DNA of 31,112 bases from a virus (IMGVR_UViG_3300033149_007507:1-31112), one strand, 5' to 3'; positions 3,360-18,820 are shown, counted from the stretch's first letter. The notes: generated from the sequence alone by a model not told the origin. Translations and numbers: made by a program.

Positions 3360-3603
3360 GTCTTCTTCCTAAAAGTCGTTTGGCTTTTTCAATTAGATTT
3401 TCCGGATTTTCTATTACGTCATGGATAATAAATAAATCTTCATCTAATTCTTTTTGTTTATAAATAAAAATAACTTTATTTGATGTGTGAAAATAATAAT
3501 CTCTAAGAACACATTTTCCTTCTGGATATTCTTTTAATCTGTAATAGGTAGCATTCATACTTTCTAATTCAGATCTTTTAATTGGATCTTCTATCTTTCT
3601 CAT
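3352..3603 (-). CDS. First gene of the TerL operon, unknown function
   Basis: An 83-aa charged protein with a beta-rich middle (KCVLRDYYFHTSNKVIFIYKQ) and a helical C-terminus. I recognise no family. The ATG at 3603 lies 25-26 nt from the TATA box at 3626-3633, so its message is probably leaderless. It overlaps the next gene by 8 nt. Confidence 0.75.
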   Translation of the reverse strand: MRKIEDPIKRSELESMNATYYRLKEYPEGKCVLRDYYFHTSNKVIFIYKQKELDEDLFIIHDVIENPENLIEKAKRLLGRRHE

Positions 3604-3654
3604 GTTTTAATTAAAGCTTATGATTATAAATATTTTTCTTTTTCTTAGTTTTTT
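3604..3654. promoter_or_regulatory. Bidirectional promoter: TerL operon (-) and structured RNA (+)
   Basis: A single TATAAATA (3626-3633) is nearly palindromic. Read to the left it gives GAAAAATATTTATA and a start on the ATG at 3603. Read to the right, the predicted start falls at about 3655, two bases before the first helix of the structured element at 3657. The minus-strand version matches the portal promoter. The plus-strand use is an inference. Confidence 0.5.
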
Positions 3655-3811
3655 AAAAGCGAGGCTTTGAAAAAGCCGAGCTTCTAAACCGCGCGACTGA
3701 GCTTGCGAAGGAGCGCGGCTATCTTCGGGAAAGCGTGAAAACCGGAAAGGTTTTCACCGCAAAACTTAAAATGAGCAAGGAGCTCTGCGAGTTGCGATTT
3801 TTATGTTTTGC
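3655..3811 (+). ncRNA. Structured RNA element, copy 1
   Basis: This GC-richer stretch has no ORF. Hairpin P0 (3657-3683) pairs AAGC-GA-GGCTT with AAGCC-GA-GCTT. P1 (3689-3718) pairs CCGCGC-GA-CT-GA-G around CUUG with the exact partner. P2 (3735-3757) has nine pairs and a GGAAA loop. P3 closes with GCAAAAC/GTTTTGC (3759-3811). The mismatches are symmetrical GA/GA pairs, which are stable on the plus strand but would be UC/UC on the minus strand. The P1-P2-P3 order returns at 5520 and 7390. The product is probably a folded RNA of about 155 nt; its function is unknown. Confidence 0.55.
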
Positions 3812-3833
3812 GCTACAATAAAAAAAATAATAA

Positions 3834-3968
3834 TTAATCAGTTGTAATCATAAATTCAACTTCTTTGGCAAACTCTTCAAATTCTTTTTCAGAATATAAA
3901 TCATCAACATTTAGCTGACTAAAAAAGTAAGCTGTTATTTCTCTTGCTTTATCTATGTCTTCTAACAT
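3834..3968 (-). CDS. 44-aa acidic protein
   Basis: Starts MLEDIDKAREITAYFF and ends EVEFMITTD. It is acidic and probably all-helical, with no recognised family. It is the last gene of a chain of tiny genes and starts 2 nt after the preceding stop. A T-run follows it (about 3818-3833 on the minus strand). Confidence 0.6.
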   Translation of the reverse strand: MLEDIDKAREITAYFFSQLNVDDLYSEKEFEEFAKEVEFMITTD

Positions 3969-3970
3969 TC

Positions 3971-4132
3971 TTATTTTATCCTATCTATAAGGTGGTTTAT
4001 TATTCTTTGCCATTTCTGGCTTTCCATCTCATAGTGATTTTCTTCATATTCTTTTACTGCTTCTCTTAAAATTCCTGCTTCTTCAATACTAAAACTTATG
4101 TTTTTTAAACTTCTCATTTGTGATGTTACCAT
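3971..4132 (-). CDS. 53-aa helical protein
   Basis: Starts MVTSQMRSLKNISFSIEEAG and ends INHLIDRIK. A single amphipathic, Glu/Lys-rich helix is likely. The ATG at 4132 overlaps the end of the upstream gene (ATGGTAA), which supports coupled translation. An internal ATG at codon 6 is an alternative start. Function unknown. Confidence 0.6.
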   Translation of the reverse strand: MVTSQMRSLKNISFSIEEAGILREAVKEYEENHYEMESQKWQRIINHLIDRIK

Positions 4133-4335
4133 GAGCCTATTCCTTTAAGATATTTTTTATAACTTGCAACAGCTTTAAAGAATTTCTTTACTTTCTTTTT
4201 TTCCATGATTAAAACATTAGAAAAATTATGTAATTCTAATTCTTCATAGACTTCTGAAATTTCTTTATCACTTTCAAAATCATACATTTGAATTTCATCA
4301 TCTAAAGAATTCCACTCTAAAATATGGTATCTCAT
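4126..4335 (-). CDS. 69-aa protein of unknown function
   Basis: Starts MRYHILEWNSLDDEIQMYDF and has a basic C-terminus (KKKVKKFFKAVASYKKYLKG). The beta-rich start and the spacing of aromatic residues resemble the small protein at 4772-4954 (MSKTHIVSWNED), so the two may be distant relatives. It overlaps both neighbours. Confidence 0.7.
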   Translation of the reverse strand: MRYHILEWNSLDDEIQMYDFESDKEISEVYEELELHNFSNVLIMEKKKVKKFFKAVASYKKYLKGIGSW

Positions 4336-4490
4336 TTTAAATCAAAAGCCTTAGCTGTTCTTTCCTTGAATAGCTTCATTTGCTCAACACTATTTAAATG
4401 TCCATAAATATTGTTGTGTTTTGTTATGCTTTTACAAGTTATGCAGTCAGGGTCATCCCATCCTAACTGCTCATGATTTTTGCATCTCAT
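4332..4490 (-). CDS. 52-aa Cys/His protein
   Basis: Starts MRCKNHEQLGWDDPDCITCK. C3, H6, C16 and C19 are spaced like a small zinc knuckle, followed by a helical tail. Such fingers often bind nucleic acid, but no family is recognised. It is linked to both neighbours by ATGA overlaps. Confidence 0.65.
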   Translation of the reverse strand: MRCKNHEQLGWDDPDCITCKSITKHNNIYGHLNSVEQMKLFKERTAKAFDLK

Positions 4491-4642
4491 TTTATATTAA
4501 GTAAGTTTAGCATAACAAAATCAGCTCTTTCTTGTTTTGTTATTTTTCCAATAGAAACGCTTTCTTTTTCAACAATTTCAATTCCTAAGAATTCTAAGAC
4601 TTTGTCAAATATCTTAAATGCTTGTTCTTCTGTTAAATTCAT
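4487..4642 (-). CDS. 51-aa protein of unknown function
   Basis: Starts MNLTEEQAFKIFDKVLEFLG; two short helices are likely. It has ATGA overlaps at both ends, which is the main support for the call. No family is recognised. Confidence 0.6.
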   Translation of the reverse strand: MNLTEEQAFKIFDKVLEFLGIEIVEKESVSIGKITKQERADFVMLNLLNIK

Positions 4643-4779
4643 TCTAATTCCTGCTCAACAACTTCGTGGCTGTTTTCTGGATACCATAAATCAAAATTAC
4701 TTTTATCAGCTTCAGCTTCTTCTTTGTTATCATAAGAAGCTATTGTAGTCATTTCTCTTAAAAGATATTGTTTACTCAT
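4639..4779 (-). CDS. 46-aa acidic protein
   Basis: Starts MSKQYLLREMTTIASYDNKE and ends VVEQELE. Its start overlaps the stop of the upstream gene by 8 nt (ATGAGTAA) and its end overlaps the downstream start by 4. The start resembles those of other small proteins in this chain that begin MSK. No family is recognised. Confidence 0.6.
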   Translation of the reverse strand: MSKQYLLREMTTIASYDNKEEAEADKSNFDLWYPENSHEVVEQELE

Positions 4780-4954
4780 TTTCAACTGCTTCATTTACTT
4801 CAAAACCATTAGCGCATATCAAATCTATTTCTAAGTTTGGATTTTTATAACTCATATCTTGTGCAATTTCTAAAGCTTGTTTTTTATTTTTAGCTTTAAC
4901 TCTTGCATAACAAGTTATATCTTCATTCCAACTTACTATGTGGGTTTTACTCAT
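4772..4954 (-). CDS. 60-aa protein of unknown function
   Basis: Starts MSKTHIVSWNEDITCYARVK. A strand-strand-helix pattern (YARVKAKNKKQALEIAQDM) is the common shape of small phage proteins in which AKNKKQALEIA forms the helix. Function unknown. The gene lies 1 nt after the preceding stop. Confidence 0.65.
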   Translation of the reverse strand: MSKTHIVSWNEDITCYARVKAKNKKQALEIAQDMSYKNPNLEIDLICANGFEVNEAVENE

Positions 4955-4955
4955 C

Positions 4956-5243
4956 TTAAATCAATTCGTAAAATAATTCAGCTATATATTCTGCTGTTTC
5001 TACTTTTTCAACAAGAACACAAACATATCCTTCACAACTTATATCATTAAAAAATTCTTTTTTAGAATAATATTTATCTTTTGGAAAAGGATTTTGTTTT
5101 AGATATTTTTTTATTTTATCTTCATCTAAAAGCAATTCTTCCCAATGAAGAACGTGTTCAGTTGTTGAAATTTTAAACAAGAATTCTCTTTCATTTTCTC
5201 TATGATGATTATCTTGTTTAACTTCAATTAATCGAATACTCAT
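4956..5243 (-). CDS. 95-aa protein, second gene of its cluster
   Basis: Starts MSIRLIEVKQDNHHRENERE; a mixed alpha/beta protein with no recognised domain. It has a strong Shine-Dalgarno (TGAAAGGGGGT, 5253-5264) that lies inside the end of the upstream 51-aa ORF, so it is probably translated well and coupled to that ORF. Confidence 0.75.
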   Translation of the reverse strand: MSIRLIEVKQDNHHRENEREFLFKISTTEHVLHWEELLLDEDKIKKYLKQNPFPKDKYYSKKEFFNDISCEGYVCVLVEKVETAEYIAELFYELI

Positions 5244-5244
5244 C

Positions 5245-5400
5245 TTACGCAGACCCCCTTTCAGTTATTAATAATTGTAAAGAAAAATCTTTTTGTTCTT
5301 TTAAAAGCATCTCGTATTCTTCTTTTGAATTAACTACATCTAAAAGATAAGAATTCAAACTTATCTGCTTTCTAAGATTTTGTAAATTTTTATTTTCCAT
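5245..5400 (-). CDS. 51-aa leaderless first ORF of cluster 1
   Basis: Starts MENKNLQNLRKQISLNSYLL and contains DVVNSKEEYEMLL, then ends ITERGSA. The VVNSKEEY and ERGxA parts match the ORF at 7122-7271, so the two are paralogues. The TATA box at 5422-5429 is centred 25.5 nt before its ATG, which predicts a leaderless message. The ERG codons are the Shine-Dalgarno of the next gene. It may be a real helical peptide, a translational relay, or both. Confidence 0.65.
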   Translation of the reverse strand: MENKNLQNLRKQISLNSYLLDVVNSKEEYEMLLKEQKDFSLQLLITERGSA

Positions 5401-5519
5401 GAGCGTCTTGAAGAAGTAGGATAGATAAATTTTTAAGAGAATTTCTCAGAGCGGAACCTCGAGAAATTCTCTGACTTCGGAGAAGGAAAAATTTACTAAG
5501 CCTACTTCTTAGCGAATTT
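5401..5519. promoter_or_regulatory. Divergent promoter with nested inverted repeats, copy A
   Basis: The minus-strand box (TTTATCTA, 5422-5429) serves the ATG at 5400. A mirror-image plus-strand box (TTTACTAA, 5492-5499) predicts a start at about 5520. The arms pair throughout: AAGAAGTAGG/CCTACTTCTT (5411-5420/5501-5510), TAAATTTTT/AAAAATTTA (5426-5434/5487-5495) and a 12-bp inner stem (5436-5447/5461-5472). Outside, 13 bp (5386-5398/5520-5532) plus 7 bp (5376-5382/5533-5539) pair across both start sites. The 13-base inner loop contains GAGCGGAACCTC, which is shared with copy B. Confidence 0.6.
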
Positions 5520-5724
5520 GGAAAATAAAAATCAAAATCGTGAAAGCGATAAAGCTTCTTATCTTCTAAGTTAATTCAAAATAGAAGCTTATTGCTTTTT
5601 TTTTGTGAAACCGCGCGACTGCAAGGAGCGCGGGAAACAGCGGGAATTCTTAAAACCGAAGAGGTTTTAAGCGAAAATCATTAAAGCGCAGAATTCGGAG
5701 AATTCTAAGCAATAAGATTTTCGC
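5520..5724 (+). ncRNA. Structured RNA element, copy 2
   Basis: No ORF of note. Going right from the predicted start there is an imperfect stem near 5545-5595 (GCTTCT/AGAAGC core). P1 (5611-5633) is CCGCGC/GCGCGG with a GA mismatch and a GCAA (GNRA) loop. P2 (5649-5671) has nine pairs and a GAAGA loop. P3 (5671-5724) is closed by nine pairs, GCGAAAATC/GATTTTCGC, and holds AGAATT/AATTCT around CGGAG. P3 matches copy 4 (8551-8605) with paired changes in the stems. These loops fit a plus-strand RNA, antisense to no known gene. Function unknown. Confidence 0.6.
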
Positions 5725-5740
5725 GTTAAATAAAAAAAAA

Positions 5741-6286
5741 TTAAGAAACAAGAACGCAACTTCCTGTTCCTTCTTTAAAAAATTCAATACAATTTGAAGC
5801 TTCTTGCTTTGATAACTTGCTTATTTTTTCTTCACTAGCTTTTCCTTTTGCTAATAAAATAAGATAAGTTATTTGCTTTTCAGTTGCATCTCCAGTTAAA
5901 GTTTTTGAATTTAAGTTCATAGTATTTCCTTTAAGATTTACTGCAACTTCAGATTTAATAGCATTGATATAAGCTTGGTTTTGTTCTAAATATTTTAGAT
6001 AAGCTGGCCACATTAAAATAGCAGGCCATCCAAAATACTTTATAGTGATCTCTGAAAATCTTTGCTGAGATTCCATGATTTTAACATGATCATTTAAACC
6101 TTGCCAGTCTTTAGCATTTCTATATGAAAAAGCTGCGAACATAGAAGTTTGCATTCCTTCTTCTAGGATAAACATCATAAAACCTATTGTTCCATGAAGA
6201 GCTATCATAATTCCTAAAATAAAAAGAAAAGCTCTGACTTTTTTACTTTTTCTTTTTGTTAAGTCATGAGCTTTTTTTAAATCCAT
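5741..6286 (-). CDS. Membrane protein, longer paralogue of the 7738 gene
   Basis: A 181-aa protein with one or two hydrophobic segments (about residues 18-41, FLFILGIMIALHGTIGFMMFIL). The core GFMMFILEEGMQTSMFAAF and PAYLKYLEQNQAYI is clearly shared with the 109-aa protein at 7738-8067. It has an extra C-terminal domain (about 130-181), ATEKQITYLILLAKGK then KLSKQEASNCIEFFK, of a type seen at the ends of phage proteins that bind DNA or other partners. The function is unknown; a membrane role such as exclusion or host take-over is a guess. It starts 1 nt after the preceding stop and ends before a T-run. Confidence 0.8.
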   Translation of the reverse strand: MDLKKAHDLTKRKSKKVRAFLFILGIMIALHGTIGFMMFILEEGMQTSMFAAFSYRNAKDWQGLNDHVKIMESQQRFSEITIKYFGWPAILMWPAYLKYLEQNQAYINAIKSEVAVNLKGNTMNLNSKTLTGDATEKQITYLILLAKGKASEEKISKLSKQEASNCIEFFKEGTGSCVLVS

Positions 6287-6287
6287 A

Positions 6288-6632
6288 TTAAATTTTTAAC
6301 TCTTGAAGATCCTGAACAAAATACTTTCCTCTTGGATCACTGTAAGATTTTCTTGTTTTCTGGCCAAAACCATTCTGCCAGACATTTCTTTTTTGATTCC
6401 ATTTAAAACCAGAATCTTTTAAAAACTTTCTAATTTCCTCAGATGGTTTTTTTTCAAATTCACACCATAACCAGCTTCCAACTAAATAGAAATTTTCTTC
6501 TATTTTTGGAAATTTATTTCGAACTTCCAAAATTATCTTTTCAATTTCTATTTCATGCTCTTGAATAGCTTCTGAGATTTCTTGATCTCTGATAAAGTTA
6601 TTAATTTCTTGTTGAATCATTTTAGTATTCAC
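6288..6632 (-). CDS. 114-aa protein with a W-rich GSWLW/GFKWN domain
   Basis: The C-terminal half reads YLVGSWLWCEFEKKPSEE, then LKDSGFKWNQKRNVWQ. I recall this pattern from small phage proteins of unknown function, in which the W and F residues form a compact domain. The N-terminal third is an acidic helix. It overlaps the upstream gene by 11 nt and ends 1 nt before the membrane-protein gene, so it belongs to cluster 2. Confidence 0.75.
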   Translation of the reverse strand: MNTKMIQQEINNFIRDQEISEAIQEHEIEIEKIILEVRNKFPKIEENFYLVGSWLWCEFEKKPSEEIRKFLKDSGFKWNQKRNVWQNGFGQKTRKSYSDPRGKYFVQDLQELKI

Positions 6633-6981
6633 TCTTTAGCAAGAAAGTGTTATCACAAATATAAAACTCGAATTCCTTTAAAGGAAAATCTGTGTATTGA
6701 TATTCCTTTGAGAAAAAAGGTTTTAAATTGCTATCTTCTCTTAAAGTTATTAGAGCTTGTTTATTCTTACTCACTTCTATTTTAACAAGAATAAAAGGTT
6801 TTTGTAACTCTTTTTTTTGTGCTAGTTCAATTCCTAAATCTGAAATTAACCAATAACATTTACAAACTTCAACTAATTTATTAATTCCATCTGTAAAATT
6901 ATAATTACTAAATGGAATTTGAATCCAGTTTTCAGTTCCATGAAAACCTTCTAATTCTTTTAAAATTAATTCAGTTTTCAT
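6622..6981 (-). CDS. 119-aa protein of unknown function
   Basis: The ATG at 6981 was chosen because it overlaps the upstream TGA (ATGA); a TTG two codons earlier is less likely. Alternating strands (WIQIPFSNYNF, CYWLISDLGIEL, PFILVKIEVS) suggest an alpha/beta fold. No family is recognised. Confidence 0.75.
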   Translation of the reverse strand: MKTELILKELEGFHGTENWIQIPFSNYNFTDGINKLVEVCKCYWLISDLGIELAQKKELQKPFILVKIEVSKNKQALITLREDSNLKPFFSKEYQYTDFPLKEFEFYICDNTFLLKSEY

Positions 6982-7118
6982 CTGCAACTAGCTCCACGCC
7001 AGCTTCCTTCTAGGAAACCTGAAGTGCAATGAGAAACATCTATTTTTGTTGCTAAATAGATTGCTGCTATGCAAACTACAACTATAATTGCAATTATCAA
7101 TATTGTAGATACTTTCAT
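6978..7118 (-). CDS. 46-aa single-pass membrane protein
   Basis: Starts MKVSTILIIAIIVVVCIAAI, so residues about 4-24 cross the membrane, followed by a short outside tail with C31 and C45 (VSHCTSG, RGASCR) that could form a disulfide. A strong TGAAAGGGGGTT lies about 11 nt upstream, inside the previous ORF. It corresponds in position to the 78-aa membrane protein at 8064. Confidence 0.7.
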   Translation of the reverse strand: MKVSTILIIAIIVVVCIAAIYLATKIDVSHCTSGFLEGSWRGASCR

Positions 7119-7121
7119 TTT

Positions 7122-7271
7122 TTAAGCTAACCCCCTTTCAATTTTTTGATTATTAAAAAAAGGAGAGATTTCTCTCTCCCTCTCCCTTAATAAGTCATAT
7201 TCTTCTTTGCTATTTACAACTTCTTTGAGCTGTTTAATTAGCTTCAATTCTGTTAAAATTTTATTTTTCAT
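7122..7271 (-). CDS. 49-aa leaderless first ORF of cluster 2
   Basis: Starts MKNKILTELKLIKQLKEVVN, then SKEEYDLLRERERE, and ends KIERGLA. It is a paralogue of the ORF at 5245 (shared VVNSKEEY and ERGxA). A TATA-like TGTAAAAA (7294-7301) is centred 26 nt before the ATG. The ERG codons are the Shine-Dalgarno of the next gene. The protein is probably a single charged helix. Confidence 0.65.
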   Translation of the reverse strand: MKNKILTELKLIKQLKEVVNSKEEYDLLREREREISPFFNNQKIERGLA

Positions 7272-7389
7272 GAAGTGTCTTGAGAAAATTTGATTTTTAC
7301 ATTTTTAGGCGGAGCGACGAGCGGCACCTCTGGAGCGGAGACGACCGCATCAGCGGGAAAAATCTAAAAAGAAAATTTTCTAACGTAAC
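7272..7389. promoter_or_regulatory. Divergent promoter with nested inverted repeats, copy B
   Basis: The minus start is predicted on the ATG at 7271; a plus box (TCTAAAAA, 7363-7370) predicts a start near 7390-7392. The outer arms pair perfectly over 14 bp (7257-7270/7390-7403) and, after a 4-nt bulge, over 8 more (7245-7252/7404-7411). Inside, AGAAAATTT/AAATTTTCT (7283-7291/7373-7381) and GATTTTT/AAAAATC (7292-7298/7358-7364) pair. The centre holds GAGCGGCACCTC, as in copy A. Confidence 0.55.
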
Positions 7390-7670
7390 TGAAAAATAAA
7401 ATTCAGAATTGGAGCGCGAACTTTAGCTCAAAGATAAAATAGCAAAGAAGTAAACTTACTTATTAAACATATATTTTCCAGTATATGCTTTCTAAAGTAT
7501 AGATTTCTTCTGCACAACTTTGCAACATCGCGGCCGAGCTTGCGAGGCCGCGTAATGTTGAGATTCGGAGAATCTCAACGTAACTGCGGAGATTCCTAAG
7601 AACGAAGAGTTCTTAGGCGAAAATCACAATTTGGCAGCTGAGCAAGCGAAGCTGCGTAAGTGATTTTCGC
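7390..7670 (+). ncRNA. Structured RNA element, copy 3
   Basis: The largest copy, with no ORF of note. P1 (7529-7552) is CGCGGCC-GA-G around CUUG with a perfect partner, extended by CAACAT/ATGTTG. A hairpin TTGAGATT/AATCTCAA with CGGAG loop (7558-7578) follows. P2 (7595-7617) has nine pairs and a GAAGA loop. P3 is closed by 11 pairs (GCGAAAATCAC/GTGATTTTCGC, 7617-7670) and encloses GCAGCT-GA-G-CAAG-C-GA-AGCTGC (7634-7655). The 5' part (7411-7520) is less structured. The stretch 7671-7737 holds no gene, only the T-tract of the cluster ending at 7738. Confidence 0.6.
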
Positions 7671-7737
7671 GGTAAAGTATTTTTCACTTTAGAGTAGTTT
7701 CATTTATAGATTAAAAAATAAAAAACAAAAAGAAAGA

Positions 7738-8067
7738 TTAGCTCAGTTTCTTTTTCACAAGATTTTCCTGAGCTTTTATATAGCCTTCATTCACTTTTAA
7801 ATATTCTAAATAAGCTGGCAACATTATAGGATTTGCTAAGCCTATTGTGTGAATTAAAAGACTTGAAGTTTTAGCTGCTGGTTTCATGTAGAGAACAATG
7901 TGATCTCTTAAACCCACGTAATCATCTGCATTTGTATAAGCAAAAGATCCAAACATCGCAGTCTGCATCACTTCTTCACAGATGAACATTGTAAAACCTG
8001 AAGTTGAAAAAATAACAAAATAAATCTTTAGGCAAAACCAAAGTTTCTTTTTTATATCAGCGTTCAT
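7738..8067 (-). CDS. Membrane protein, short paralogue of the 5741 gene
   Basis: A 109-aa protein with a hydrophobic segment at about residues 9-30 (LWFCLKIYFVIFSTSGFTMFIC). It shares GFxMFIxEExMQTxMF, YxNAxD, GLxDH and PAYLxYL with the 181-aa protein at 5741-6286, but lacks that protein's C-terminal extension. It overlaps the upstream gene by ATGA. The pair shows that clusters 2 and 3 arose by duplication. Function unknown. Confidence 0.8.
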   Translation of the reverse strand: MNADIKKKLWFCLKIYFVIFSTSGFTMFICEEVMQTAMFGSFAYTNADDYVGLRDHIVLYMKPAAKTSSLLIHTIGLANPIMLPAYLEYLKVNEGYIKAQENLVKKKLS

Positions 8068-8300
8068 CTTAGATTCTTAGAATTAAGATCAGCGATTATC
8101 TTAGCTAAGCATTGATCTGCTAATTCTGATTCACCAAAATATTCTAACTCAGCACAAGCATTAGACTCTTCAGGCCTAAATCTCATTGCTCTAGCTATAT
8201 CTCTATTTTCTTCAAAATCCGCAATTACGAATTTCATGGCCAAGATCCAAAGCAAAATAAATGCAATTATGATCCCTACAATTAAAATTTTAGTTTTCAT
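8064..8300 (-). CDS. 78-aa single-pass membrane protein
   Basis: Residues about 4-26 (KILIVGIIIAFILLWILAMKF) cross the membrane. The outside part contains C49 and C64 (SNACAELE, ADQCLAK) and is helical. The Shine-Dalgarno TGAAAGGGGGTT (8307-8318) lies inside the upstream 15-aa ORF. It occupies the same place as the 46-aa membrane protein of cluster 2. Confidence 0.8.
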   Translation of the reverse strand: MKTKILIVGIIIAFILLWILAMKFVIADFEENRDIARAMRFRPEESNACAELEYFGESELADQCLAKIIADLNSKNLR

Positions 8301-8344
8301 TTTCTAAACCCCCTTTCAAAATTTGCGTTAAATTTAGTTTTCAT
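8297..8344 (-). CDS. 15-aa leaderless mini-ORF of cluster 3
   Basis: MKTKFNANFERGFRK, ending in an ATGA overlap with the next gene. The TATA box at 8366-8373 (TTTATCTA) is centred 25.5 nt before its ATG. ERG again encodes the Shine-Dalgarno of the next gene. It looks like a worn-down relative of the 49- and 51-aa first ORFs and probably acts as a ribosome relay. Confidence 0.5.
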   Translation of the reverse strand: MKTKFNANFERGFRK

Positions 8345-8422
8345 GGCGCGCTAGCGCTTTTTGGATAGATAAATTTTGATGCAGCGACACAAAATTTACT
8401 AAGACAAAAAGTCTCAGGACCA
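8345..8422. promoter_or_regulatory. Divergent promoter with nested inverted repeats, copy C
   Basis: The minus box TTTATCTA (8366-8373) and plus box TTTACTAA (8395-8402) are mirror images, as in copy A, and predict starts at 8344 and about 8423. Pairs: AAATTTAGTTTTC/GAAAACTAAATTT (8330-8342/8423-8435), CTTTTTG/CAAAAAG (8357-8363/8405-8411) and TAAATTTTG/CAAAATTTA (8370-8378/8390-8398). It is shorter than A and B and lacks the GAGCGG loop. Confidence 0.55.
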
Positions 8423-8605
8423 GAAAACTAAATTTTAATTTTGAATGGGCCAGATTAGAAAACTAAAATTAGATCTTACTCTGTTTTGTAGAGTAAGATC
8501 CAAACTCGCGGCCACGTAATTTTTAATTTTATATTGTGGCCGCGCGCAAACCGAAAATCATTAAAGCGCAGAAATCGGGAGATTTCTAAGTAATAAGATT
8601 TTCGG
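8423..8605 (+). ncRNA. Structured RNA element, copy 4
   Basis: No ORF of note. A perfect 10-bp hairpin (GATCTTACTC/GAGTAAGATC, 8472-8500) is followed by P1 (CGCGGCCAC/GTGGCCGCG, 8507-8544, AT-rich loop) and P3 (CCGAAAATC/GATTTTCGG, 8551-8605) enclosing AGAAATC/GATTTCT around a GGGA (GNRA) tetraloop. The P2 hairpin of the other copies is missing. P3 is the sister of copy 2: the linkers are the same, while the stems have changed in pairs. Confidence 0.6.
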
Positions 8606-8791
8606 TGAAGCGAATTAATCGATTCTTCTTTCAAAATTTGTGCAGCTGCTTTATTTTAAGATAATTACGCAGCTGCGATATTGCGATTTTTAACTTTTTA
8701 AATTTCTGAAACCCCCAATATCAACCTTCTCAGAGCCTCTACCCCCCGATTTTGAAATTTGTCGTCGGGGCAAAAGCTGAAACCCTCAAAT
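8606..8791. other. Gene-free spacer with two stem-loops
   Basis: Two inverted pairs are seen: GCAGCTGC twice (8642-8649/8669-8676) and CCCCGA/TCGGGG (8744-8749/8765-8770). The latter lies just after the stop of the 8792 gene and may end its message. Several CCCCC runs (GGGGG on the minus strand) resemble the Shine-Dalgarno motif but have no ATG nearby. Confidence 0.4.
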
Positions 8792-9091
8792 TTAGGCACC
8801 TGAGGGGCTGTCCTCTAATAATTCTCCAAGAGCGCTCCCGCCTTTTTTGGTCTTTGGCTGACATTTTTCTAATTCCTTTTCTAGCTTTTTTTTTGTCTCT
8901 AAAAGCCTATTTAACAAATTAATCTTCGAAGTAAGCTCTTTATCTTCTATCTCTTCTTCTCGCAAAAACACATTAATTCTCTGGATTTGTGTAACAACTT
9001 TAACAAGGAGTGCTCTCAACTGAAAAGCTGATTTTTTTTTATCTTTAACCATATTATTCGCAGACATCCTTTCATAAGTTTTATATCCCAT
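8792..9091 (-). CDS. 99-aa coiled-coil protein
   Basis: Residues about 25-75 form a long charged helix with heptad-like leucines (LRALLVKVVTQIQRINVFL, LTSKINLLNRLLETKKKLEK). The ends are basic and Gly/Ser-rich. The ATG at 9091 follows the inverted-repeat region. It lies directly downstream of the replication ATPase, so an accessory role in replication is possible but not shown. Confidence 0.65.
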   Translation of the reverse strand: MGYKTYERMSANNMVKDKKKSAFQLRALLVKVVTQIQRINVFLREEEIEDKELTSKINLLNRLLETKKKLEKELEKCQPKTKKGGSALGELLEDSPSGA

Positions 9092-9133
9092 TTTTAATTA
9101 AATTTTTTCCAAAACCCCAATTTTTCGTTCGTC

Positions 9134-9232
9134 TCGCCACTTCTTATATGTAAGTGTATATATCCCTTGGGGTAGTCTTCTTAATTTTTTTATTTTTTAT
9201 ATATATATACACCTTAGTATAGTAGGTGGCGA
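9134..9232. repeat. Long imperfect inverted repeat next to the replication ATPase (candidate origin)
   Basis: The left arm 9134-9163 starts TCGCCACTTCTTATATG; the right arm 9201-9232 read backwards starts TCGCCACCTACTATACT. Both go on through TAAG and TGTATATAT. The centre is A/T-rich with CCCTTGGGG. Arms of about 30 bp around AT-rich DNA, directly after the ATPase stop codon, fit a replication origin or a two-sided operator/promoter. It also contains TATA-like sequence that may serve the 9091 gene. Confidence 0.55.
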
Positions 9233-9234
9233 TA

Positions 9235-10770
9235 CTACTCGTTTTTTGAGCTTTGAGCCAATTCACCCCCTTTCATCTCATTATTTTCAACTTTTCCAGA
9301 ATCTAAGCCCTTTTCCTCGTTTGATTCCTCTTTTTTAACTTTCAGCTGCTCTTGACCCTTCTTTGCTAATTCTTTTTCACCATCACTTAGAGCTCTCTCA
9401 ACATCATCTTTAATTTCTTCTTCAACCTTTTCCGCAGTTTTCTTAGCACTTTTACTAATTGAAGCATTTTTCGCAGCCTCTCTTTCAACAATTAAAGGCT
9501 TAAAATTCTCAATCACTTTACATTGTTCTGGATCAAAATAATAAGTATCTTTAGTTTTTCCATATCCCAATTCTTCAACTTCGTGCATTATCAGGCCCAA
9601 ATTATTCAAAATATTCAGCTCCTTAAACACAGTCTTTTTCCCTAATCTTAAATCTTCTGCAACTCTATAAACACTCATTTTAAACTGAGCTTGTCTTTCT
9701 CTTTCTTGAATTTCCCTAAGATACCTATAAACTCTGCATCTATTTTGCGAACTAGAACTCAATACAATATGCTTTATCACATCAAAAGCCTGCTCTTCAC
9801 TATAACCCTCTTCTAAGCTCATTAGAGCCACATACAGCCTTTTTAATTGCTTGAAGCATCTAGTAGGCTTCTCAACTGAAACATCACTAATAACTTCGCC
9901 TGAAAAATTATCAACATCAGCTGCAGCACGCATATAAGTTAAAAATTCAATATAACGCCAGAGCTTATCAATAATTTTTTCATCAAGAAGTTTCTTTTTT
10001 ATAGTTTTAAATTTCAAAAACTTTTCAGTAATCCCATATAATTCTTCCCGCATTTTCACTTCTTCATTTTCATTCATCAAAACTTTCTTGATCAGAGCAT
10101 CATAATCTCTAATTGCCTCAGTTCTATAAATCAGCTCCCTTGTTCCTAAATCCTGATAAATTAAAATCTGATTATCTATATGTGGAGTTGATCCTGCAAG
10201 CAGAGTAATTCTCAAACCATCATAAAAAACCTTTCCTTTCCCAGATCCAAAATTCTGAGATAAACTTCCATCATATAAATTTCTCAGCTGAGCCCAGACT
10301 TCTGCTTTTTCTTGAACAGGCAATTTTAAAAGCTGAGCCATATCAGGAATTAAAACCATTCTCTCATATTCAGCATAAAATTGCGGAGCTAAATCTTCCA
10401 CTTTTGGAAGGCCAGAAATTAAAGTCTTGCTTGTTAGCCTATCTATTCTGTAAGAAAAATCCTGATCTAAAGCCATGATTTGTTCAGATTTAAAATCCCC
10501 ACTAGGCCCAACAAGTATGATCCAAACTGGCGTGCCTCTCATTTTTCTAGTTAATGCAAGAGCTAGCCCCATATCAATTCTTTTTAGATCCTCAATATGC
10601 AACCATTTCCTATAAGTTTCATGAACTTCTTTAAGCTTTGGAATTTTCCCCATCTTTTGCTGGATTTCTTCTTCAGCTCTCTCCCTCTCATATTTCACTT
10701 CAGGATCTTCATCTACTGGCCGGACATTTTCTCCTTCTTCCTCATCAATTTCTTTATTTTTTTTTGTCAT
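9235..10770 (-). CDS. AAA+ ATPase, probable replicative helicase or initiator
   Basis: 511 aa. The N-terminus is acidic. The ATPase core shows VGPSGDFKSE (residues 87-96) as a deviant Walker A with Phe in place of the last Gly, MVLIPDMAQLL (138-148) as a Walker B with Asp but no Glu next to it, ITLLAGSTPHID (188-199) as sensor 1 and LGTRELIYR (208-216) as the arginine-finger region. Residues about 360-400 (MSVYRVAEDLRLGKKTVFKE) form a winged-helix DNA-binding domain. The last 80 residues are a charged tail. This order resembles the ATPases of phage and plasmid replication modules. No polymerase or primase is present, so it probably recruits host enzymes. Confidence 0.8.
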   Translation of the reverse strand: MTKKNKEIDEEEGENVRPVDEDPEVKYERERAEEEIQQKMGKIPKLKEVHETYRKWLHIEDLKRIDMGLALALTRKMRGTPVWIILVGPSGDFKSEQIMALDQDFSYRIDRLTSKTLISGLPKVEDLAPQFYAEYERMVLIPDMAQLLKLPVQEKAEVWAQLRNLYDGSLSQNFGSGKGKVFYDGLRITLLAGSTPHIDNQILIYQDLGTRELIYRTEAIRDYDALIKKVLMNENEEVKMREELYGITEKFLKFKTIKKKLLDEKIIDKLWRYIEFLTYMRAAADVDNFSGEVISDVSVEKPTRCFKQLKRLYVALMSLEEGYSEEQAFDVIKHIVLSSSSQNRCRVYRYLREIQERERQAQFKMSVYRVAEDLRLGKKTVFKELNILNNLGLIMHEVEELGYGKTKDTYYFDPEQCKVIENFKPLIVEREAAKNASISKSAKKTAEKVEEEIKDDVERALSDGEKELAKKGQEQLKVKKEESNEEKGLDSGKVENNEMKGGELAQSSKNE

Positions 10771-15529: not shown

Positions 15530-15723
15530 GAAAAAAATAGGGTCTTTCCGGCCATCAAAGTAATCAAAGCTGCTATATATCCTATTACTCTTGTTGTCCA
15601 TCTTACATGAACCTCTAATTTAGTTACTCTATGATTAAGAATATTAACTAAGGTTTTAAGATTTGTGTTCATGCTTTTGAAATCTTTCCCTTCAACATAA
15701 TAATTTCCTTTTTTATTTTCCAT
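15526..15723 (-). CDS. XhlA-like coiled-coil membrane protein
   Basis: 65 aa: a soluble helix (KSMNTNLKTLVNILNHRVTK, residues about 17-36) followed by LEVHVRWTTRVIGYIAALIT and one membrane helix at the C-terminus. This matches the layout of haemolysin XhlA-type proteins, which work with a holin in some phages. Pairing with the next holin-like gene supports a lysis or membrane role. Confidence 0.65.
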   Translation of the reverse strand: MENKKGNYYVEGKDFKSMNTNLKTLVNILNHRVTKLEVHVRWTTRVIGYIAALITLMAGKTLFFS

Positions 15724-15724
15724 T

Positions 15725-18700
15725 TTAACTATACTCCCTCACAATATAAACACAATCATTCTTTACATTGGTTGCATTTACAAAGAAATTTATATTTGCT
15801 GAATTAAATGAAACTGCCCTTCTAGAATTAGCACCAATACAAAAATCATAATATTCTTCCGACCAAAAATCCCAACAAGTTAATTTATCTCCATCACTTA
15901 CAGCATTTAAATAAATTCTATAATCTACATTAATATTTGTTGATTTAATTGATTTTTCTTCTCCTGCAAACCCCCAATCACCAGTCATATTTAATTTAAT
16001 TGAAATATTTTGAGTATTCCAATTTTGCCAGCAATTAAACGTGATTTCTATTAAAGTAGGTTCACTAGTTATTGGATGAGATCCTACCTGCTCCCAAACT
16101 CCTAAAGTTGAATTAGAAAAATTAGCAACTCTTGTAGTAACTAAACCAGCAGTTGTTTGATCTGTATGACAAGCTCCATCAGCTCCTAAGTATTGAATTC
16201 CTGAACAGGAAGTAAAACCAGCAATAACTCCAGTAGATCCAATTTCAGCTGCATCGATAGTATTTGCACTGATATTTTGACAAGATAAATTTCCATCAGC
16301 AAAAGCTTGAAATTCTGAATTTGCTTGTGTTGAAGTTCCTAACCATAAATCATCACCAGCTCCTGTTGTATAAAGATCTCCCCCAGTTTTTATATATTGA
16401 CCAGCATCAATGTATAAATCAAAAACTAAAGGTCCCCCAAGAGTAAGTTCATCAGAAATCTGAAACCTATCATTCGCATCATCCCACCTTATAAATTCAT
16501 GTTCTGGAGCACCGCCTTCATAAAAATAAATATAAGAATCTCCTTCGCTATCTCCTAGATATATATTTTCACTAACAGACATATTTTCACCGACATGAAC
16601 AGATCCACCAATAGTTAGATTTTCAGAAATACTAACATTTCCACTAACATCAAGATTAACAAAATATCCTTTTAACCATCTTGCAGCAGCTGTTCCTAAA
16701 TCGAGAACACTATTTGCATAAGGTTTTAAAATTTGAGTCACTCCATTTGTTAAATTCGCAGTCCAATAAGGATCTGTTTCAGTTACAGTCGGAGTAACAC
16801 AAGATAAAGTATCACCTAAACCTTGCACAAATTCATTTCCAGTGCAAGCAGCTGGGTAATTATCAATAGTAGTCCAGTCTGCAGCTTGAACATAAACTCC
16901 TGAAATATCATCGCAGTTTCCTTCTCCATCTAAATATGTTGTTGTTCCTGCGCACTCAGTAGAAGCATTTGTATCTGTAAAAGAATCATAAGTTGCATTG
17001 TAAGTAGAATAAAATAAATCTGAATTCATACAAGATCCATTTCCTAAAAAAACTTCTGAAGTTGAACAATTTACAGAAGCTGAAGTATCAACAGTATAAT
17101 CTAATTCAGAATCATAAGTTATTAAATCACAACTTCCATCAATAGAGCAGTTTCCTATTGTAGTATCAGTATCAACATCATCTCTACATTTTAAACTTCC
17201 ATTAGAATAAATTCCATAGCTATAATTTCCAGCTCCGCAATCTATTTGCATATTTGTAAAATTCGCAGTCCATACAGGATCTGTTTCAGATAATGAAGGA
17301 GAACCACAAATCCAAGATCCATTTCCATAAATATCATATATAAAATCTCCAATCTCACACCCTTCTTGCATATTTGTAAAATTCGCAGCCCAATTAGGAT
17401 CTTGCTCATTGAATAATTCAGTAGGATCAACACACTGAACACCTGAAGAAGTGGTATTTTGAACAACTGTTCCAGCTGAACAATTCGCAGCTGCAGCTTT
17501 ATTTTCATAAGTCACATTATATTTATTTAAGGCCTCACTCCATAAAGAAGCATTTTCAGCTAAAAATATAGGATCTGTTTCAGTTACAGTCGGAGTAATA
17601 CAACTCAAAGTATCTCCTAAACCTTGAACTACATCATTTCCAGTGCAAGCTGAAGGATAATTATCAATAGTAGTCCAATCTGTTCTGCTAACAAAATTTG
17701 CATCTGCATAATCTTCAGCAGGAGTTGTTTGATTATAGGCCCAAGAATCATAAGTAGCATTAAAGGTTGCAAAAAAAGGACTAAGAGGATGACAACTTGA
17801 ATTTCCTAAAAGAACTGAAGCCCCACTACATTCAGTAGAAGCGTTTGTATCTGTAATAGCTAAATAAGCATCATATGTGGAATTAAAAGTAGAGTTGAAG
17901 CCAAGAGCTAATCCTGTTGCAGAAATAGTTTCATTTAATTTAGTATCATTAAAACTTAAAGTAGCTCCATCAAAACTAAGCCAATCTGTAAGAACAGTCC
18001 AGTTAAATTTTCCTTTAAACCAGTTTCCAGTCCAGTTAGAATTAATAAAATTAAAAAGCCATGATCCTGAATCTGAATCTCCAGCAATATCAATATAAGT
18101 ATTTAGATCTGTTTCAATATCAGCATCATCAACATCTATAATTTCAGAAGGAGTTATCCATTCATTTCCTATAATTAAAAAACAAGTTGAATTTCCTAAT
18201 AAAACAGAAGCTCCAGAACAAATTGTAGAAGCATTTGTATCTCCTAATCCTGTTTGATTATAAGACCAAACATCATAAGTAGAATTAAAAGTTGAGAGAT
18301 AAGAAGCATTATTTATTAAACCTGCATAAGTTTCATTATAAGTAGAAAGAAAAATAGCTGTGCTCCAACAAGTTGAATTTCCTAAAAGCACTTCATCTAA
18401 AGAGCAAATTGTTGAAACATTAGTATCAACATCCATATCACTTCTGCATTTCCAAGTCCCATTAGAATAAATTCCATAACTATAATTTCCAGCTCCGCAA
18501 TCTATTTGCATATTTGTAAAATTCGCAGCCCAATTAGGATCTGATTCACTCACATTAGCAATTAAGGCCCCGCCAGAAGTTATTTGATTTCCACCAGACC
18601 AAAAATCTCCAGTGCAATTAACAATTCCACCATCTCCACCAACCCAGCAAGTAGTTGTTGTATCATTTCCAAATTCAGTCGGAGCTCCATATGTTGAATA

Positions 18701-18820
18701 ACCTCGAACCCACAGAGCTCCGAGAAATAAAAGACTAAGGGAAAAAAATATAATAAAAATGTACTTAAGATATTTTTCTCTAGCTTCGATGAACTGCTTT
18801 GTAATATTAAATTTATTCAT
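15725..18820 (-). CDS. Large signal-anchored fibre/spike protein
   Basis: 1031 aa. Residues about 19-39 (YIFIIFFSLSLLFLGALWV) form a signal anchor after a basic start. The body has about six copies of a cysteine-bracketed unit (CSGASVLLGNSTC and relatives), many N-x-S/T sequons and repeated TDTNAST and TFNSTYD blocks. From about 690 comes a fibre-type module (LDLGTAAARWLKGYFVN, then NVSISENLTIGGSVHVGEN), and the end is a Cys-rich globular domain. The LGTAAxRW pattern is typical of phage tail fibres. A host-binding role is likely. The signal anchor is odd for a tail protein and suggests export and glycosylation before assembly, or a display role on the cell. Confidence 0.8.
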   Translation of the reverse strand: MNKFNITKQFIEAREKYLKYIFIIFFSLSLLFLGALWVRGYSTYGAPTEFGNDTTTTCWVGGDGGIVNCTGDFWSGGNQITSGGALIANVSESDPNWAANFTNMQIDCGAGNYSYGIYSNGTWKCRSDMDVDTNVSTICSLDEVLLGNSTCWSTAIFLSTYNETYAGLINNASYLSTFNSTYDVWSYNQTGLGDTNASTICSGASVLLGNSTCFLIIGNEWITPSEIIDVDDADIETDLNTYIDIAGDSDSGSWLFNFINSNWTGNWFKGKFNWTVLTDWLSFDGATLSFNDTKLNETISATGLALGFNSTFNSTYDAYLAITDTNASTECSGASVLLGNSSCHPLSPFFATFNATYDSWAYNQTTPAEDYADANFVSRTDWTTIDNYPSACTGNDVVQGLGDTLSCITPTVTETDPIFLAENASLWSEALNKYNVTYENKAAAANCSAGTVVQNTTSSGVQCVDPTELFNEQDPNWAANFTNMQEGCEIGDFIYDIYGNGSWICGSPSLSETDPVWTANFTNMQIDCGAGNYSYGIYSNGSLKCRDDVDTDTTIGNCSIDGSCDLITYDSELDYTVDTSASVNCSTSEVFLGNGSCMNSDLFYSTYNATYDSFTDTNASTECAGTTTYLDGEGNCDDISGVYVQAADWTTIDNYPAACTGNEFVQGLGDTLSCVTPTVTETDPYWTANLTNGVTQILKPYANSVLDLGTAAARWLKGYFVNLDVSGNVSISENLTIGGSVHVGENMSVSENIYLGDSEGDSYIYFYEGGAPEHEFIRWDDANDRFQISDELTLGGPLVFDLYIDAGQYIKTGGDLYTTGAGDDLWLGTSTQANSEFQAFADGNLSCQNISANTIDAAEIGSTGVIAGFTSCSGIQYLGADGACHTDQTTAGLVTTRVANFSNSTLGVWEQVGSHPITSEPTLIEITFNCWQNWNTQNISIKLNMTGDWGFAGEEKSIKSTNINVDYRIYLNAVSDGDKLTCWDFWSEEYYDFCIGANSRRAVSFNSANINFFVNATNVKNDCVYIVREYS
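17200..17268. repeat. DNA repeat inside the fibre gene (copy 2 at 18460-18528)
   Basis: 68 of 69 bases match 18460-18528, exactly 1260 bp (420 codons) away. A third partial copy of 37 bases (17366-17402) matches 18505-18541. The repeats keep frame, so unequal crossing-over can add or delete whole fibre units. Confidence 0.85.

Follow-up and report, generated by a model that had tools for sequence, protein, structure and literature searches.

Genomic context of the elements

The virus record analysed here, which we refer to as the window, is 31,112 bases long and has a terminal direct repeat of 114 nt. It encodes a terminase, a portal protein and a major head protein, and the minus strand carries all assignable genes as well as the long open reading frames. 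By capsid and portal, the nearest named relative is an Altiarchaeum virus (~30% identity), so the host is likely archaeal. The window was found to contain no tRNA gene.

Four gene-free stretches hold the elements E1-E4 (Table 1). An initial annotation had placed them beside tiny-gene cassettes. The adjacency stands, and the site can be given more exactly: read in the minus sense, each element sits in the gap between two operons, behind the last gene (3′ end) of the one and ahead of the other's head. E1 thus precedes the gene group that ends with the terminase. On the minus strand, cassette 2 is ordered E2, gene B and a run of small genes; cassette 3 is E3, gene B, a small membrane protein, two further genes and gene A; and cassette 4 is E4, a 15-codon remnant of gene B, a small membrane protein and gene A. 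The gene-B copies of cassettes 2 and 3 share 45% identity and the gene-A copies 43%. Gene B of cassette 4 has lost its middle: what survives is the start region, within the palindrome described below, and the opposite end, which carries the next gene's Shine-Dalgarno sequence. The plus strand of E2 ends beside the 3′ end of cassette-2 gene A.

Several features elsewhere in the window were recorded. An imperfect inverted repeat (9131-9235; 33-nt arms, 76%) flanks a TATATATA tract. It immediately precedes, in plus coordinates, a putative replication gene (9235-10770) and is a possible replication origin. Many diverged direct repeats (16745-18554) lie within the gene for a 1031-aa protein, which is probably structural. 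The folds at 361-480 and 18661-18780 are stable and stronger on the minus strand (z about -4), and are candidates for ordinary minus-strand leaders or terminators.

Table 1 Features of the four elements and their surroundings in the window.
Feature	Position	Strand	Remarks
Near-palindromic TATA box (putative)	3622-3635	.	GATTATAAATATTT; by inspection; between E1 (plus) and 83-aa gene (minus)
E1, putative structured RNA	3655-3815	+	module shared with E2-E4
E1 5′ hairpin	3657-3683	+	tandem GA, GAA loop
E1 P1 / P2 / P3	3689-3718 / 3735-3757 / 3758-3812	+	P2 loop GGAAA
Gene B, cassette 2	5245-5400	-	51 aa
Quasi-palindrome, cassette 2	5323-5581	.	E 4e-21; gene-B head (minus) and inverted copy (plus)
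Hairpin H0	5411-5510		centre of cassette-2 quasi-palindrome
E2, putative structured RNA	5519-5728	+	holds decayed gene-B copy and module
E2 decayed gene-B copy	5519-5597	+	A-rich hairpin, H1
E2 P1 / P2 / P3	5611-5633 / 5649-5671 / 5671-5724	+	P2 loop GAAGA
Gene A, cassette 2	5741-6286	-	181 aa, N-terminal stretch hydrophobic
Gene B, cassette 3	7122-7271	-	49 aa
Quasi-palindrome, cassette 3	7187-7466	.	E 2e-19; gene-B head and inverted copy
E3, putative structured RNA	7388-7675	+	holds decayed gene-B copy, H1 and module
E3 decayed gene-B copy	7388-7466	+	
E3 P1 / extra hairpin P1b	7529-7552 / 7555-7581	+	
E3 P2 / P3	7595-7617 / 7617-7670	+	P2 loop GAAGA
Gene A, cassette 3	7738-8067	-	109 aa
Quasi-palindrome, cassette 4	8291-8471	.	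E 4e-15; gene-B remnant and 78-aa gene head
Gene-B remnant, cassette 4	8299-8344	-	MKTKFNANFERGFRK; by sequence inspection
E4, putative structured RNA	8420-8608	+	decayed copy, without P2
E4 H1 / P1 / P3	8472-8500 / 8506-8545 / 8551-8605	+	

A hairpin module is shared by the four elements

The initial annotation described a common hairpin order, P1-P2-P3, in all four stretches. This is borne out: P1 and P3 are present in 4/4 copies, and P2 has the nine pairs and GAAGA or GGAAA loop that were claimed for it and is missing, as stated, from E4. P1 is GC-rich, with a tandem G.A cap in E1-E3, and P3 closes in every copy. What the elements have in common is, more precisely, a 3′ module of ~105-155 nt, and the described layout left out a long hairpin, H0, in the 5′ halves of E2-E4. 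The shared module supports treating the four as one family of structured elements. An extra plus-strand hairpin with GCAGCTGC arms lies just after E4 (8640-8700).

The module is rare by pattern. Perfect hairpins with a 9-bp stem and a 5-nt loop occur four times in the whole window, always within the elements. A descriptor for such a hairpin directly abutting a helix of at least 7 bp that closes 30-55 nt matches E1, E2 and E3 only, all on the plus strand, and has 0 matches in 60 dinucleotide shuffles of the whole window. P3 of E4 is recovered (E=2.9e-5) by a covariance model of the other three copies.

The pairing itself is conserved. The P2+P3 alignment of E1-E3 comprises 17 pairs, with 51/51 cells standard (100% paired). 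Both sides have changed in 7 of the 17, against 2.4 ± 1.3 in shuffled alignments (0/500 shuffles), the sample being three or four paralogues of one genome. Sliding the pairing partner abolishes this signal. P3 of E2 and of E4 share 91% identity over 56 nt and differ by compensating changes and one G-C to G-U change, which stays paired on the plus strand only.

The stretches were also correctly described as richer in GC than their surroundings (0.34-0.48, against 0.32 for the window), and the bare modules reach 0.40-0.50. Whole-element folding energies have z-scores of -2.8 to -9.4, the densest run of structure in a z-score scan falls at 3.6-9.2 kb, and structure extends over ~160-400 nt within the gene-free stretches.

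Loop motifs and purine content favour the plus strand

It had been claimed that the loops make sense only on the plus strand. Folding energy is undecisive here, minus-strand folds being about as stable as plus-strand ones, while GNRNA loops, tandem GA and purine content favour plus. On this strand the P2 loops are GNRNA in 3/3 cases. By a strict rule applied to the window, there are three GA/GA internal 2x2 loops, all within the elements, and no TC/TC internal loop was found. Unpaired bases are 63-73% purine when the plus strand is folded and 27-35% when the minus strand is. The plus-strand purine content of the elements (0.55-0.57, against a genome plus-strand average of 0.44) places them in the top 0.3-1.5% of 300-nt windows.

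In E1-E3, the minus strand has a U tract after the upstream gene's stop codon and before P3. Archaeal termination occurs at U tracts, and minus transcripts of the upstream operon should therefore end before the module in these three elements. On the plus strand, a U tract directly follows P3 in E3 only.

Three elements begin with a mirrored operon head

Upstream of P1, E2, E3 and E4 each repeat, in inverted orientation, the head of the minus-strand operon next to them, a feature that the initial annotation had missed. Each copy spans the promoter region and the opening codons of gene B, in which the start codon is altered. In cassette 2, 5487-5581 matches 5434-5323 (73% over 112 nt, E 2e-11), and in cassette 3, 7358-7466 matches 7306-7187 (71% over 121 nt, E 2e-13). 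The quasi-palindromes of cassettes 2-4 are the only ones in the window with E < 1e-3.

The plus arms share marks: none of the three has an ATG, and in 2/3 ACTAAG replaces ATCTATCC. This suggests that one old duplication founded them. Each plus arm nevertheless resembles its own minus arm (65, 74 and 69%) more than the arms elsewhere (47-63%), from which we conclude that the arms evolve in concert. Template switching is a documented route by which complementary hairpins are made and maintained (PMC8794818).

These arms change how covariation must be read. H0 covaries strongly in E2-E4, but as its arms are inverted duplicates, which may covary by template switching, we do not count this signal as independent evidence for RNA. 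The case for RNA therefore rests on the P1-P2-P3 module, which is also present in E1, where there is no mirrored arm. Short stems could in principle stay paired through template switching as well, so the loop motifs and the strand bias carry much of the weight, and part of the apparent layout of the elements may stem from this process.

Searches for relatives and known families

The initial annotation knew of no described RNA family with this layout, and a search of the window against Rfam 15 agrees, with no match at the gathering score; neither did the GOLLD and ROOL covariance models match. A permissive Rfam scan of 3500-8900 returned sub-threshold matches only, and BLAST of E2 against phage and plasmid records found no homologue.

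Relatives were sought in viral contigs with patterns for TerL, the replication protein, gene A, gene B and the capsid, those for gene A and the capsid also being run on genome contigs. These searches returned only L005, L007 and L008, along with the Altiarchaeum virus by tblastn, and the collections searched held no close relative of the virus. Related virus contigs had been proposed as a place to look for the module, which by covariance model is absent from four distantly related records. Exact 20-mer and P3-pattern scans of IMG/VR gave no homologue. In the 23 P3-pattern matches no P2 precedes the P3, and the covariance model scored no better than E 0.024 across 237 kb; they were rejected as chance, as was a model match in L007 (E 0.42), which looks coding and lies on the gene strand.

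L005 is the only relative of gene A found (44-52% identity). The gap after its gene A (322-771) has a GC content of 0.46 versus 0.36, is structured (z -3.6 to -5.5) and is purine-rich on the strand opposite the genes; it has no sequence similarity to E1-E4, and by analogy of position and composition the parallel with the elements is suggestive. A second long non-coding gap (1030-1560), moderately structured and without an Rfam match, lies ahead of a tiny gene and the terminase.

The Altiarchaeum virus (L006, BK059162) has two giant quasi-palindromes in gene-poor regions, one at 9585-9998 (403-nt alignment, E 2e-41) and another at 15635-15782 (144 nt, E 1e-18). Their arms have mirrored TATA-like motifs that recall E2-E4, without the P1-P3 module.

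Integron attC sites were considered and dropped, there being no core sites by eye, as was a type III toxin-antitoxin system, on the grounds that the strands differ and no pseudoknot repeats were seen.

Interpretation and rival explanations

On balance we think it probable that E1-E4 are paralogous, virus-encoded structured non-coding RNAs of ~160-290 nt, transcribed from the plus strand and fired divergently from operon heads. Each head would fire both ways, leftward into the operon and rightward into the RNA, from putative start sites. E1 would be fired from its near-palindromic TATA box, which lies ~27 nt ahead of the first hairpin and could act in both directions, and E2-E4 from the mirror promoter copies that arose when the gene-B head was duplicated in inverted orientation. 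The working part would be the common 3′ module, with P1, the boxB-like GNRNA pentaloop of P2 and the closed P3. The RNA would act in trans, most likely as a scaffold or decoy; an RNA-binding protein of the virus or the host may hold the P2 loop, and copy number would raise the RNA dose. A protein ligand is suggested by the boxB-like loop, and on this analogy we propose a protein-binding role in trans only tentatively. Several points count against the RNA reading: the plus-strand promoter motifs are AT-rich and weak, with no clear TATA box in E3; only E3 has a plus-strand U tract right behind P3; homologues were found in this genome only; and, the palindrome arms being concerted, complementary change can arise here without selection on RNA.

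The elements could instead be features of the DNA that yield no functional RNA: either quasi-palindromes and small hairpins that replication template switching made and keeps complementary, or DNA hairpins that serve replication or recombination. Such an origin would fit the coincidence of the only three large quasi-palindromes of the window with E2-E4, their concerted arms, the ability of template switching to create and maintain hairpins (PMC8794818) and the giant quasi-palindromes of the related Altiarchaeum virus. Against it, the P1-P3 module lies outside the palindromes and is common to E1, which has none, and a strand-blind process would not predict GNRNA loops, GA tandems and a strong strand bias. 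We consider this explanation unlikely.

A role as minus-strand cis-regulatory leaders is, in our estimation, quite improbable. Here read-through from the upstream operon would fold so that the mirrored arm hides the start of gene B and, in E4, the Shine-Dalgarno sequence of the next gene too, and it would mainly be transcripts from the local promoter that are translated. Every element does immediately precede an operon head when read along the minus strand, its minus fold is about as stable as the plus fold, and the E4 arm can base-pair with both the gene-B remnant and the following gene's head. The U tracts after the upstream stop codons of E1-E3 argue against read-through; moreover, on the minus strand the GA/GA loops become UC/UC, the unpaired bases are two thirds pyrimidine, and the distal P1-P3 module is left without a role.

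An RNA-only oligomer of the ROOL/GOLLD kind, held by loop-loop contacts such as GCUUGC (the P1 loop of E1 and E3) with GCAAGC (the P3 loop of E3), is very hard to credit: the loops could pair over 6 nt, each has GA...GA on its flanks, and phage-borne ROOL and GOLLD do form homo-oligomers (PMC12286853), but each loop can also self-close (GC/GC), which makes a match cheap, E2 and E4 lack it, E1-E4 are several times shorter than ROOL and GOLLD, and the window has neither a tRNA gene nor an Rfam match. We regard the kissing-loop match as a weak lead.

Returning to divergently fired RNAs, a broader proposal, of which we are doubtful, is that in an archaeal virus inverted duplication of operon promoters has repeatedly given rise to divergent units that encode trans-acting structured RNAs of a new class; the promoter arms would stay complementary, and mirror-image heads would fire the operon and the RNA. 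To our knowledge, structured RNAs encoded by archaeal viruses have hardly been described. Four divergent copies in one 31-kb genome provide an internal comparison, and both strand and structure are directly testable. The mirrored operon heads suggest a specific way, open to checking, in which a viral RNA gene may gain a promoter, and with this layout a single gene switch could fire an oppositely directed RNA as well. They also carry a warning: covariation between arms can reflect template switching instead of selection.

Comparison with known systems

GOLLD and ROOL are phage-borne non-coding RNAs that are homo-oligomeric, of unknown function and often near tRNA islands (PMC12286853). They resemble E1-E4 in being virus-borne and non-coding and in their elaborate hairpin architecture, but measure ~600-800 nt or more and come from bacterial phages, whereas E1-E4 are 160-290 nt long, belong to a probably archaeal virus, form four paralogues and have no tRNA nearby and no Rfam match. 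Membership, a kinship that the initial annotation had not claimed, is not supported, as the length and model tests both failed.

The hairpin of the lambda nut site, boxB, is bound by the N protein and has a GNRNA-type pentaloop on a short stem. The loop of P2 is of this type (GAAGA in E2 and E3, GGAAA in E1), and the resemblance is limited to this one loop. boxB lies within the transcript of the genes it controls, whereas P2, on a 9-bp stem, is on the plus strand, opposite the minus-strand genes, and so outside the nascent transcript of a regulated operon. No N-like protein was identified.

In Pyrococcus, bidirectional firing from one TATA box is established, with antisense products considered non-functional (PMC6640164). 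E1-E4 would share with this case the divergent firing of an RNA at an operon head under TATA-box control. There, one TATA box is shared and the product is regarded as noise; here, three heads have a mirrored promoter duplicate with a conserved RNA module behind it.

Hairpins made by template switching (PMC8794818) are likewise reverse-complement copies kept complementary by concerted change; in this virus, however, the copied unit is a promoter and gene start of ~110 nt, in three cassettes of one genome. The family is new as a family of sequence and structure and of a known kind as virus-encoded structured RNA, and its unusual part is the mirrored operon heads.
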